A DNA stretch of 64,000 nt from Bifidobacterium pluvialisilvae (GTDB taxonomy: Bacteria > Actinomycetota > Actinomycetes > Actinomycetales > Bifidobacteriaceae): positions 248,001-312,000 of the forward strand of contig NZ_JAHBBI010000001.1 in assembly GCF_019331695.1 (NCBI RefSeq), given 5' to 3'. The translations under genes were made by a program, and so were the position numbers. The notes under the pieces are model-generated. The model saw only the letters and a list, made by a program, of their open reading frames with translations. It ran no database searches and had not been told where the DNA came from. Below are positions 1,230-22,163 of the stretch, piece by piece (the stretch's first letter is position 1; each line of letters begins with the position of its first letter).

Positions 1230-3152
1230 ATGGCGGTACGCGGTGATATCCGTAATGTGGCGATTGTGGCTCACGTCGACCACGGCAAGACCACGCTGGT
1301 GAACGCTATGCTCCAGCAGTCCCACGTGTTCAACGAGCGCGAGGAAGTACCGGATCGTGTCATGGACTCCAACGATCTGGAACGCGAGAAGGGCATCACC
1401 ATTCTCGCCAAGAACACGGCCGTGGAATACACCGGCCCGCTGGCCGCCAAGTACGGCCACCCCGAAGGCATCACCCTCAACATCATCGACACCCCCGGCC
1501 ACGCCGACTTCGGCGGCGAGGTGGAGCGCGGCATCTCCATGGTCGACGGCGTCGTCCTGCTCGTGGACGCCTCCGAAGGCCCGCTGCCGCAGACCCGCTT
1601 CGTGCTGCGCAAGGCCCTCGAGGCCAAGCTGCCGGTCATCCTGTGCGTCAACAAGGTGGACCGTCCCGACGCCCGCATCGAGGAGGTCGTGGGCGAGACC
1701 TCCGACCTGCTGCTCGGCCTCGCCGACGATGTGCAGCACGAGGGCATCGACCTCGACCTCGACCAGCTGCTCGACATGCCGGTCATCTACTGCGCCGCCA
1801 AGGCCGGCTATGCCTCCACCAACCAGCCCGCCGACGGCGGCCTGCCCGACAACGACAACCTCGAGCCGCTGTTCGAGGCCATCATCTCCAACATCCCCGC
1901 CCCCGAATACGAGGAGGGCGCCCCGCTGCAGGCCCACGTGGCCAACATCGACTCCTCCGACTTCCTCGGACGACTCGGCCTGGTCCGCATCTACAACGGC
2001 ACCCTGAAGAAGGGCGCCACCTACGGCCTGTCCCGCGTGGACGGATCCCTCGAGAACTTCCGCGTCTCCGAGCTGCTGCGCACCCAGGGCCTCGACCGCC
2101 AGCCGGTCGACGAGGCGGGCCCCGGCGACATCGTCGCCGTCGCCGGCGTCAACGACATCATGATCGGCGAGACCATCGTCGACCCCAACGACCCCAAGCC
2201 GCTGCCGCTCATCCACGTCGACGACCCGGCCATCTCCATGACCTTCGGCGTCAACGACTCCCCGCTGGCCGGCACCGAAGGCAAGGACCACAAGCTCACC
2301 GCCCGCATGATCAAGGACCGTCTCGACCGCGAGCTCATCGGCAACGTGTCCATCAAGGTGCTGCCCACCGAGCGCCCGGACGCCTGGGAGGTCCAGGGAC
2401 GTGGCGAACTCGCGCTGGCCGTGCTCGCCGAGCAGATGCGCCGCGAGGGCTACGAGCTGACCGTCGGCCGCCCGCAGGTGGTCACCAAGACCATCGACGG
2501 CAAGATCAACGAGCCTATGGAGAACACCACCATCGACGTGCCCGAGGAGTACATGGGCGCCGTCACCCAGCTCATGGCCGACCGCAAGGGCCGTATGGAC
2601 AACATGACCAACCACGGCTCCGGCTGGGTGCGTCTGCAGTTCACCGTGCCGTCCCGCGGCCTCATCGGCTTCCGCACCGCGCTGCTGAGCGCCACCCGCG
2701 GCACCGGCATCGCCTCCTCCATCTCCGCGGGCTACGCCCCGTGGGCCGGTGAGATCGTCATCCGCCAGAACGGCTCCATGGTCTCCGACCGTCAGGGCGT
2801 CGCCACCCCGTACGCCATGCAGCGTCTGCAGGCCCGTGGCAACTTCTTCGTCGAGCCGCAGTCCCCGGTGTACGAGGGCCAGGTCGTCGGCATCAACAAC
2901 AAGCCCGACGAGCTCGATGTGAACATCACGCTGGCCAAGCACATGACCAACATGCGCTCCGCCACCGCCGACGTGCTCGAAACCCTCACCCCGCCGATCA
3001 AGATGAGCCTCGAGGAGTCCTTGGACTTCGCCAACGAGGACGAGTGCGTGGAGGTCACCCCGGAGGCCATCCGCGTGCGCAAGATCATCCTCAGCCGCGA
3101 CGAATGGTACAAGTGGCGCGCCAAGCAGCGTCGTCAGAACAACAACAAGTAA
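1230..3152 (+). CDS. typA: Ribosome-associated GTPase TypA/BipA
   Basis: The 640-residue length is normal for TypA/BipA. This translational GTPase of the EF-G family binds the ribosome and is linked to ribosome assembly and to stress or cold growth. The N-terminal G domain shows HVDHGKTT (P loop, residues about 16-23), [14 protein letters not shown] (G3) and NKVDRPDAR (G4, NKVD). EF-G-like domains II, III and V follow, and then the TypA-specific C-terminal domain ending in a Lys/Arg- and Asn-rich tail. A purine-rich AAGAGAGG lies upstream of the ATG. A strong intrinsic terminator follows, so it is probably transcribed alone. Confidence 0.96.
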
Positions 3153-3203: not shown

Positions 3204-3233
3204 ACGGGGAGTCCTTCCGGGCTCCCCGTTTTT
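3204..3233 (+). terminator. Rho-independent terminator of typA
   Basis: ACGGGGAG and CTCCCCGT pair in a GC-rich stem (3204-3214 with 3219-3229) that runs directly into five T residues. It sits about 50 bases after the typA stop and separates typA from the downstream repeat array. Confidence 0.85.
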
Positions 3234-3290
3234 GGGTTATCGGTCAAAAATGTGTGTCTGCCGGGCTGGTGTCTGAGGTCGGTGTCTGCC

Positions 3291-3885
3291 GGTTTTGTGG
3301 GTCTATTGGTTCATGGAAATATGAAAGTGGGTCCATTGGTTCGTGAGGAGGGCGTTTTCGGCGTCCTCGTGTATGTCGTAGACCCACAAACCCGTAGATG
3401 AACGGATTGACCCACGGTTATTGAACATGCCGGACCCACGAATCCGTTTGCCTGAACGGGTGGACCCACAAACCCGGTCCGTCGACTGGTCCATTGATCG
3501 AACAGACCCACGAACAGACCTACGGATCTGGCTCGTCGATTGGGCGGACCCACAAACCAGAGGACGTAGGCCTTCGGGTGGGTTGATGATTGGTGTTGTG
3601 GGCCTATCGGTTCGCTGGAATATGAAAGTGGGTCCATCGGTTCGTGAGGAGGGGATTTTCGGCGTCCTCGTGTATGTCGTAGACCCACAAACCTCTTTAT
3701 GACCGTCTTGGACCCACTATTAATGAACGGGTGGACCCACAAACCCGGCACATTGAACGGATAGGCCCACGAACCTGGCCCAGTGAACGGGCGGACCCAC
3801 GAACCCGGTCCTTTGAACGGGTGAACCCATAAATTTGATTGGGCAGACCCACAAATCCATTGCTGGGCAGACCCACAAACTTCCG
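3291..3885. repeat. Noncoding array of about 30-bp GACCCAC(A/G)AAC motifs with two 98-bp inverted-end units
   Basis: The word GACCCAC, usually followed by AAAC or GAAC and often preceded by TGAACGGGTG, recurs at about 3381, 3409, 3433, 3463, 3505, 3547, 3682, 3711, 3734, 3764, 3794, 3846 and 3870. Many of the gaps are 22-30 bases and several are exactly 30; the longer ones are 42 bases. The reverse-complement word TTGTGGGTC or TTGTGGGCC opens two near-identical 98-bp blocks (3296-3393 and 3596-3693, start to start exactly 300 bases). Each block ends with GACCCACAAACC, so its ends are inverted copies. No convincing protein frame runs through the array. Copies are diverged, unlike a CRISPR. Function unknown. 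Confidence 0.85.
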
Positions 3886-4264
3886 GGGTACGGTCCGCAA
3901 TGTGTGTCTGGCGGTCCAGTCACTTGACTGCCATTCGGCGTGTATGTAGGTCGTTTCGGTCGATACCGGTGCCGTATCGCATGGGGATGCCATACATCTC
4001 GTGCATGCCTTGGCTTTTCCCATGCCTGCCGGTATATGAGGTTCTCCGGCTGCTGGTCGGTGACGGCATTGGCCGCGAGCCATGCTGCTCCCGGACGTTC
4101 CGCCGGATTATGGCTCGGTGTTGGAAACACCAGACTCATGAGCTCCCATGAGTTCCATCAGCGGGCTTCTTGGCCTTGGCCTCCTGCAGGAGCATGGCAA
4201 ACGTCCGATACGGCATTCATCGTCCGAAACAGCCCGGTCGCAACGTCGCGCCATACTGGAGCGT
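3886..4264. other. Spacer between repeat array and membrane-protein gene
   Basis: I see no gene with a credible start and no clear terminator here. Open frames in this stretch lack a Shine-Dalgarno sequence and look like chance frames. The sequence is less GC-rich than flanking genes. A possible Shine-Dalgarno GGAG near 4257 belongs to the next gene. Confidence 0.4.
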
Positions 4265-7551: not shown

Positions 7552-7580
7552 ATTATGCCACAACAACAACACGTTGTATA
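7552..7580 (-). promoter_or_regulatory. Predicted promoter of the TetR gene
   Basis: On the minus strand, TATACA (7575-7580) and CATAAT (7552-7557) are 17 bases apart and lie 46 bases or more upstream of the predicted start. They match four and five of six consensus positions. The -35 box lies inside the first of the tandem repeats. Confidence 0.55.
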
Positions 7581-7662
7581 GATAAGAACACGTGTATGGA
7601 TGGGAACTCGTCGTATGGATGGGAACGTGTGTATGGACGGGGATTCGTCGTATGGATGCGGA
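7571..7662. repeat. Five tandem 18-19-bp repeats upstream of the TetR gene
   Basis: The core GTATGGATGGGAAC occurs with variation at about 7576 (most diverged), 7594, 7613, 7631 and 7650. The steps are 18, 19, 18 and 19 bases, close to two helical turns. The array begins within the predicted -35 box of the TetR gene and extends upstream. This layout suits cooperative binding of a regulator, possibly the TetR protein itself, but that is an inference. Confidence 0.75.
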
Positions 7663-17261: not shown

Positions 17262-17266
17262 CTGCC

Positions 17267-17525
17267 TGTCATCCTGAGCGGGGCCTGTGGCTGGTCCTCC
17301 TGTCATCCTGAGCGGGCCTGCGGCTGGTCCTCCTGTCATCCTGAGCGGAGCCCGTAGGGCGGAGCCGAAGGATCTCGGGACGGTGTGAGATCCTTCGACT
17401 CGCTACGCTCGCTCAGGATGACAAAAGGGGCGACCGTTCAGGATGACAGAACGAGGGCGACCGTTCAGGATGACAGAACGAGGGCGACCGTTCAGGATGA
17501 CAGAACGAGGGCGATTGCTCAGGGT
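17267..17525. repeat. REP-like palindromic repeat cluster (TGTCATCCTGAGCG family)
   Basis: The left side has three direct copies of TGTCATCCTGAGCG at 17267, 17301 and 17334 (steps 34 and 33). The third copy begins a long imperfect inverted repeat (about 17334-17422) centred on GGATCTC and GAGATCC, which ends CTCAGGATGACA. The right side then repeats TTCAGGATGACAGAACGAGG at 17437, 17464 and 17491 (exact 27-base steps). The cluster fills the gap between two convergent genes and could end transcription from both sides. A smaller relative lies at 20727-20846. Confidence 0.85.
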
Positions 17526-17545
17526 GGCAGGGGGTTCCGCGGAGG

Positions 17546-20726: not shown

Positions 20727-20846
20727 GTGTCATTCAGAACGGGCGAATCCCCTGTGTCATCCTGAGCACGGGGGATTCTCTTTTGTCATCCAGGGCGGGC
20801 GGATTCCTCCCTGTGTCATCCTGAGCGAGCGCAGCGAGTCGAAGGG
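20727..20846. repeat. Second REP-like cluster (TGTCATCCTGAGC family)
   Basis: TGTCATTCAGAACG, TGTCATCCTGAGCAC, TGTCATCCAGGGCG and TGTCATCCTGAGCGAGCGC follow one another, the last with the AGCGAGTCGAAGG tail seen in the 17.3-kb cluster. All copies have the same orientation. It again fills a gap between convergent genes. Confidence 0.75.
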
Positions 20847-20861
20847 CAGTCGGCATGGTCC

Positions 20862-22163
20862 CTATCCGGCCGGCATATAGGTGTTGCTTCCTCCCTGCGA
20901 TTTGTCGGTCACGGTATGCGCGGAGGCGTCGTAGACGAATACTCGTGGCGCCGACTTCCCGGACTGCGCGGAGGCATCGTAGAGCAAGTAGCGTGATCCG
21001 CCGTCGGATCGTACGGAATAGGTGGTGGTCGTCCTGCTTTTGGGGCCGATTCCTGACTCCCATGCAACGGATGTCGCCGTGTTCCCGGAGAAAGTGATGG
21101 TTTCGCGGAATCCACCGACGGGCGCGGCGTAGAAGTAGCTGCCGTATGGGTGGGCGCCGGTCGTCTGCGTGCCGCCTGACGACTGGCTTTGCGATTGCGA
21201 CTGCTGTTGTCGTTGGATGTCGGCCTGCTGCTCCTGCTGGGCCTGCTGTTGCTGCTGCTGGAGGGTGCGGTCGGCGTTCTGCTTGGCGGTCATGGAATTG
21301 TTGACCTTGTCGATGGCGGCGGTGAGGTCCTTGTTGGCCTTGGTGATGTCGGTGAGTGTGGGGTTGCTGCCGTTCGCCACCTTCTTGGCGTTGTCGATGG
21401 ACGTCTGGAGCGTGGTGATGGTGTTCTGGTCGCTGACGTTGCCTTTGGCTTTGGAGAGAATGGATTCGGCCTTGGTGATGGAGTCGTTCAGCGACTTCCT
21501 GGAGTCGGCGAGGCTTTTGCCGTCACGGCTGGCGGTCACGGCGTCCACGGCCTTGGCGAGCGAGTCGTTGTCCTTGCCGGCCTGGTCGGCGGCTTCCTTG
21601 AGCTGCTCCGCGTTGGCTTTGAGCTGGCGGAACGGCTGGTCGGCGGAGCAGTCGAGTTTCGCCGTGTCGGGCGTCGTGGTGTCGGATATGGCGGTCTTCA
21701 GCGCGGTGAGGGTTCCGGCATCGTTGAGTTTGCCGCCGTCGGTGCCGGCGGCGTCCTTCGCCTGCTTCATGGTCTTGTCCAGTGTGGTGGCGAGGGATGT
21801 GAGCCGGTCCTGCTCCTGCCGGCAGGTATCGGCCATGGCCGTGGTCTGGTGGCGGGTGAACAGCAGCGTACCCACGGCCAGCAGGGCCACGACGACCGCG
21901 GCGGCGGCGAGGATGGTCATAAGTCGACGGCGGTTGTCGTCGTTGTTCCCGCCACCGGTGGGGCCGGACTCCACATTGCCGTCGCCGCCTGGCGTCCCGG
22001 CCGTAGGGGCCGCTTCCGAGCCGGGCATCGGCACCGGAGGCAGTCCCATACCGTCCGTCTGCGCCGCACGGCTTGTCCCCGACGGCATGGGCACCGGCGT
22101 CATCGCCGCGGAAGGCATGGGAACCGGCGATATTGCGGATTGGTTCGGTGCACGGAAAGCCAT
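20862..22163 (-). CDS. Membrane-anchored protein with Pro-rich cytoplasmic tail, coiled-coil/FIVAR-like stalk and Gln-rich linker
   Basis: The ATG at 22163 follows GAGGGG and gives 433 residues. A Pro/Met-rich N-terminus repeats PVPMPS and PPVPMPG (residues 10-60) and precedes one hydrophobic helix (MTILAAAAVVVALLAVGTLL, about 82-101). The outer part is an alanine-, lysine- and aspartate-rich helical stalk, with sets like LTALKTAISDTTTP and TSIDNAKKVANG that resemble FIVAR or albumin-binding-module helices. A Gln/Ser tract (about 295-330) leads to a compact beta-rich C-terminal domain of about 95 residues rich in Tyr, Ser and Thr. No LPXTG. Function unknown; the layout suits a surface or envelope-stress sensor. 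Confidence 0.8.
   Translation of the reverse strand: MAFRAPNQSAISPVPMPSAAMTPVPMPSGTSRAAQTDGMGLPPVPMPGSEAAPTAGTPGGDGNVESGPTGGGNNDDNRRRLMTILAAAAVVVALLAVGTLLFTRHQTTAMADTCRQEQDRLTSLATTLDKTMKQAKDAAGTDGGKLNDAGTLTALKTAISDTTTPDTAKLDCSADQPFRQLKANAEQLKEAADQAGKDNDSLAKAVDAVTASRDGKSLADSRKSLNDSITKAESILSKAKGNVSDQNTITTLQTSIDNAKKVANGSNPTLTDITKANKDLTAAIDKVNNSMTAKQNADRTLQQQQQQAQQEQQADIQRQQQSQSQSQSSGGTQTTGAHPYGSYFYAAPVGGFRETITFSGNTATSVAWESGIGPKSRTTTTYSVRSDGGSRYLLYDASAQSGKSAPRVFVYDASAHTVTDKSQGGSNTYMPAG

Follow-up and report, generated by a model that had tools for sequence, protein, structure and literature searches.

Modular bacterial repeats such as BOX and BIME are mosaics of a fixed core and a variable number of units. 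In the REPIN-RAYT system, dispersed extragenic inverted doublets form hairpins and distinct paralogues are each flanked by their own repeats (PMC3116915; PMC3733652). The dedicated transposase gene of that system, RAYT, is flanked by palindromes thought to be spread by the transposase (PMC3116915, PMC3733652). The CGTC-tagged REPs are palindromes of 20-40 bp, found mostly in alphaproteobacteria, which have no RAYT association and for which no partner protein has been named (Di Nocera et al. 2013, PMC3733652). Among DNA-binding proteins, AbiEi recognises 23-bp inverted repeats close to the gene that encodes it (PMC7319586). Here we describe a repeat block 3' of typA in Bifidobacterium pluvialisilvae, its dispersed relatives and a gene flanked by them, which together look like a mobile system, made up of a gene and a repeat, that has not been described before; no prior description was found in the open literature searched, most subscription papers and all preprints lying outside that search.

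The block occupies positions 3291-3885 (forward strand) of the window, the whole 64,000-nucleotide stretch of DNA analysed, between typA (1230-3152, forward strand), the preceding neighbour outside the element, and the next gene, which starts near 4148. A separate terminator-like hairpin (3205-3236) precedes the array. Between 3294 and 3879 the exact motif GACCCACRAA is present 11 times, 10 on the forward and 1 on the reverse strand, with a 12th copy having one mismatch. The sequence-only reading of this stretch was thus right about a dense array, while its figure of at least 13 copies was a slight overcount. All exact motifs of the window fall inside the block, and the sole outside site with at most one mismatch is at 20901. 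Repeat finding recovered units of 30 bp (TGAACGGGTGGACCCACAAACCCGGCCCAT), some shorter ones of 22-24 bp and a 119-nt stretch that recurs 301 bp away, and in the 30-bp units TGAACGGGTG precedes the motif and CCGG follows it, as had been noticed from the sequence. Two cores of about 125 nt, about 85% alike, lie at 3321-3445 and 3622-3746 (forward strand) and score 137.5 and 125.5 bits with model R1, scores that lean towards this genome because the model was built from its own cores. In the hairpin of core 1 (3324-3391, forward strand), two inverted motifs separated by 57 bp enclose an inner GAGGA/TCCTC stem, and an outer inverted motif (3294-3303, reverse strand; TTTGTGGGTC on the forward strand) stands 87 bp before the first core motif. 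The array is completed, all on the forward strand, by outward motif units at 3433, 3463, 3505 and 3547 (3433-3560), by 3.7 tandem copies of the 30-bp unit (3724-3833) and by two shorter-spaced units of 22-24 bp (3836-3882).

Several expectations of the sequence-only reading could be followed up in the block itself. The repeat is intergenic, its units are diverged, spaced 24, 30, 42 and 52 bp apart and found in both orientations, which agrees with a noncoding repeat and led us to reject a CRISPR; a coding array was rejected because units spaced by 22 bp disrupt the reading frame and the ORFs in the block seem to be spurious. Folded as DNA, the hairpin of core 1 lies 4 s.d. below shuffled sequence (z = -3.99), an outcome of the kind that the sequence-only reading had named as adding weight. 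The G-quadruplex named alongside it was not borne out, no canonical motif (four G3+ runs, loops 1-7) being present on either strand of 3251-3900, and the idea of a structured RNA gained nothing from Rfam, where no family matched the block up to E = 1. Elsewhere in the window, another repeat family, possibly a different dispersed palindrome, has copies in inverted orientation (TGTCATCCTGAGC / GCTCAGGATGACA) that form short tandem arrays at 17265-17530 and 20750-20826, and a 19-bp unit (AACACGTGTATGGATGGG) occurs in about five diverged copies at 7568-7658.

The block is one of many. In the whole 2.66-Mb genome (G000) the exact motif occurs 298 times (148 + 150), compared to 3 times (2 + 1) for a reversed control pattern, an excess well beyond chance, and 294 of the 298 sit in the fetched loci, which contain 37 intergenic arrays; the motif is thus present at many loci, an outcome that the sequence-only reading had named as supportive. 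Nearly gap-free alignment was obtained for 31 cores, all built on the inverted motif pair 57 bp apart around the GAGGA/TCCTC stem. Beyond the core pair, motifs follow at about +28 and +52 and then every 22 or 30 bp, and on the other side of the core units of about 30 bp run in the opposite direction, and therefore the whole element points outward from the hairpin. Inverted spacings across the arrays are mostly 57 or 87 and sometimes 117, as though some copies carried a degenerate unit closest to the hairpin. Preferred distances between motifs are about 22, 30, 42 and 52 bp, which are near whole helical turns (R = 0.57 at 10.2 bp); strict helical phasing was set aside, as the two unit lengths (22 and 30) alone could yield the clustering. 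The arrays are intergenic, lie mostly in downstream or convergent positions next to ordinary genes, and occur in divergent promoter regions less often than motif-free intergenic controls do (2/33 vs 22/91, p = 0.037). Cores at separate loci are up to 92-96% identical, and arrays less than 30 kb apart resemble each other more closely than those further away (permutation p = 0.0015). We rejected a shared mobile gene next to the dispersed arrays, since their neighbours read as ordinary housekeeping genes, and likewise a phage or plasmid origin of the repeat, for which searches of phages, plasmids and viral contigs gave no match. The distribution over the contigs looks uneven, with several arrays in less than 75 kb on contigs C3, C4 and C6, two on contig C1, which is 383 kb long, and none found in the first 157 kb of C12.

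Related species carry the same architecture, mostly with other motifs. At the typA site itself the array is absent in 8/8 congeners, which goes against the conserved place after typA that had been named as possible support; a conserved role there was rejected as well. Among the 59 relatives searched, the exact motif is clearly enriched only in G008 (50 copies) and G004 (32 copies), and many of their arrays are at positions orthologous to those of G000; part of the array set is therefore ancestral. With a covariance model of the core, weak relatives of similar architecture were detected in a further five congeners and in one other genus, with the same inverted pair and hairpin and different motifs: TACCCAGAT in G001, G002 and G007, TATGCCCAGAAC in G115, TATGCCCACGA in G073 and G109, GGCCAAGTA in G003 and ACCAAGT in G005. 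Some of them occupy intergenic places where G000 also has an array. Different-motif arrays were also observed in the same intergenic places across species (L045 vs L091 of G005; L060 vs L109 of G005 and L092 of G001; L068 vs L096 of G002), reflecting either insertion hot spots or concerted motif replacement.

When the array flanks were aligned across species, one gene was found to adjoin several arrays. In G000 this gene (contig C16, 17697-18722, outside the window) lies between two GACCCAC arrays and encodes a protein of 342 aa. Pfam gave AbiEi_4 only, and below threshold (12.2 bits vs a cut-off of 25); a weak AbiEi match was seen in 2 of 24 family members, with the AbiEi model cut-off not reached, and searches of NCBIfam and the PDB with the protein returned no match. 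All 24 homologues share invariant NGGE, RxDxxW and ExDGxxKY, and E[LFY]DGxxK is present in 26 of 28 further homologues (once as EFNG, N for D), in total 50/52. The conserved D...ExDGxxK motif resembles the VDF...ELDG core of DUF559/PD-(D/E)XK nucleases; neither Pfam nor PDB gave a PD-(D/E)XK/DUF559 profile match for the family, and although hhalign aligned the VDF..ELDG stretch of E. coli YcjD (DUF559), the probability was 0.9%, which is non-significant. The N-terminus is probably a winged helix of the AbiEi type. Homologues, some of them pseudogenes, are found in 119 of 189 Bifidobacteriaceae genomes and in 216 of 297 Actinomycetales genomes, and among orthologues the C-terminal part is more conserved than the N-terminal part (64% vs 45% identity). 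No toxin gene was recognised beside the G000 gene, and the neighbours at locus L060, judged by their sequence, read as a transporter and rpsJ. Beside the typA array, window positions 3905-4063 are about 73% similar to the DNA adjoining the 3' hairpin of the nuclease-like gene in G099 (L093:2942-3104) and may be a relic of a former partner locus.

The association of this gene with palindromes does not depend on the GACCCAC motif. For 54 homologue loci, the two flanks of the gene, about 700 bp each, were compared with each other (local score at least 25), and a repeat common to both flanks was found in 38/54 loci and in 0/54 matched stretches further out (Fisher p = 2e-16, a value that overstates the evidence because the loci are phylogenetically non-independent). 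Control loci at typA gave 0/8. The shared repeat was present in 25/38 loci of Bifidobacteriaceae and in 13/16 loci of other families, and was missing from 16/54 loci overall. The pairing recurs with unrelated repeat sequences, and repeats are present downstream of the gene too. Palindrome scores of the gene flanks reached 34, compared to at most 11.5 in shuffled flanks and at most 12.5 in real typA flanks. A chimeric probe of 20 gene-flanking hairpins found matches mainly in the genome of origin, the exceptions among the matches listed being related genomes (G073/G109 and G000/G004/G008) and one G007 locus. Dispersed palindromes paired with a dedicated nuclease-like protein family are thus well supported.

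Within G000 itself, the repeat differs between paralogues. Three others, one of them truncated, are flanked by different repeats with no adjoining GACCCAC array, and both of the two such repeats that were searched for are dispersed. One paralogue (L214:1564-2514; G000:C19:45163-46113) has a TATGGTGCTTTT palindrome at its flanks, and about 20 more copies of this palindrome are dispersed in G000; some copies occur also in G003, G004 and G008. Another (L215; G000:C12:302652-303602) has diverged GGTTCCC-type repeats on both sides and adjoins a pgm-like gene, as do the homologues in G073 and G102. The more similar two proteins are, the more similar their hairpins tend to be (rho 0.52 and 0.44), although such co-divergence is also expected from vertical inheritance alone. 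The number of motif copies follows the gene: 298 in G000 with a matched gene, and 50 and 32 in G008 and G004, where no matched gene was found, the G008 orthologue being flanked by a TTGGCA hairpin instead and G004 having no close homologue. These numbers fit protein-driven spreading.

The whole is best read as a two-part system resembling REPIN/RAYT but based on an unrelated nuclease-like protein. The GACCCAC element, like REPINs, is an extragenic inverted pair that forms a hairpin and has many dispersed copies, and a dedicated gene carries these repeats on both sides. The parallel lies in the organisation, as the defining gene is a different one: RAYT (Y1_Tnp, PF01797) had no match in G000, G004 or G008, whereas five control genomes matched. 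In place of an HUH Y1 transposase, which was not found in this genome, the partner is a protein whose N-terminus resembles AbiEi and whose conserved motif is PD-(D/E)XK-like, and the arrays of 22/30-bp units are long and directed outward. A conserved unpaired GTAG foot was not found, the columns before the motif being variable in the 31 cores (G 15/31, T 19/31, A 23/31). The CGTC REPs are similarly palindromic and without RAYT, but here a partner gene is identified, and in Actinomycetales. The modular build recalls BOX and BIME as these are described, with the difference that the present repeat flanks a cognate gene.

We consider it probable that the block at typA belongs, as a non-autonomous copy, to a family of dispersed palindromic repeats with a dedicated trans-acting protein, and the absence of the array from the typA site of congeners together with cores of 92-96% identity elsewhere counts in favour of such a mobile family. 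That the partner protein mobilises the repeats is also probable. The N-terminus would bind the motif units of about 22 bp (compare AbiEi on its 23-bp inverted repeats), the C-terminal nuclease-like domain would nick or cut at the hairpin, after which the core could be copied into new intergenic sites by host repair or replication. The outward arrays would afterwards lengthen via slippage or unequal exchange of 22/30-bp units, and repeat copies would decay once the cognate gene is lost. The lower conservation of the N-terminal part agrees with this proposal of binding plus nuclease activity, and so does the correlation between hairpins and proteins, for which vertical descent alone would suffice. 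The sequence-only reading did not include the core with its hairpin, the dispersal over the whole genome, the versions particular to each species or the nuclease-like gene flanked by matching repeats; its ideas of a protein-binding role and of an expanding repeat are both still plausible for the block.

The protein could alternatively be a site-specific DNA-binding regulator, either an AbiEi-like autorepressor or a chromosome organiser, with the palindromes as operators or docking sites, the arrays as a regulon or nucleoid anchors, and the nuclease-like motif inactive or otherwise used. The weak AbiEi_4 match at the N-terminus, a likeness to AbiEi and Rv2827c of the type IV AbiE systems, which autoregulate via 23-bp inverted repeats (PMC7319586), and the spacings of about 22, 30, 42 and 52 bp close to whole helical turns are in its favour. 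However, the partner differs from AbiEi in its conserved nuclease-like C-terminal motif, retained in 50/52 homologues, and in having palindromes on both sides and genome-wide. As the repeats are found also downstream of the gene, arrays are comparatively rare in divergent promoter regions (2/33 vs 22/91) and array positions vary between species, we regard such a role as unlikely. It is less likely still that the hairpins are RNA elements useful to the host at gene ends, such as terminators or mRNA stabilisers, whose spread is incidental and for which the neighbouring gene is one beneficiary of many. The mostly downstream or convergent arrays and the stable hairpin would suit this role, but the same repeat on both sides of one particular gene family and the long outward arrays are left unexplained, and the typA array comes after a terminator-like hairpin that is separate from it. 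Spread and expansion purely by replication slippage, recombination and gene conversion, with the gene as a passenger near an insertion hot spot, would account for the greater likeness of neighbouring arrays, the varying number of 22/30-bp units and the places shared by different-motif arrays across species, but is very improbable given that the pairing recurs with unrelated repeats in many genera and for separate paralogues of one genome. That these are classical REPs with a RAYT or another HUH transposase as mobiliser, the enzyme having been overlooked or lost not long ago, can practically be dismissed despite the REPIN-like architecture, as PF01797 was unmatched in G000, G004 and G008 but matched in the five control genomes, and no conserved GTAG tag is present.

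Returning to the two-part system, it could represent a widespread and undescribed class of repeat-mobilising enzymes in Actinomycetales, in which proteins combining a winged helix with a PD-(D/E)XK-type domain each recognise their own hairpin and spread it independently of HUH and DDE enzymes, protein and recognition sequence co-diverging by species; we put this forward tentatively, with slightly less than even confidence. Many bacterial palindromic repeats, the CGTC REPs for example, have no known mobiliser, and the system would provide a second family of proteins, unrelated to the first, that has a dispersed repeat dedicated to it, occurring in most of the Actinomycetales genera sampled. Since several paralogue-repeat pairs exist in one genome, the specificity is directly testable. 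If the protein does spread the repeats, this would be a new route for mobile DNA, and if it does not, it would still belong to a large family with almost no annotation, whose members probably bind DNA site-specifically.
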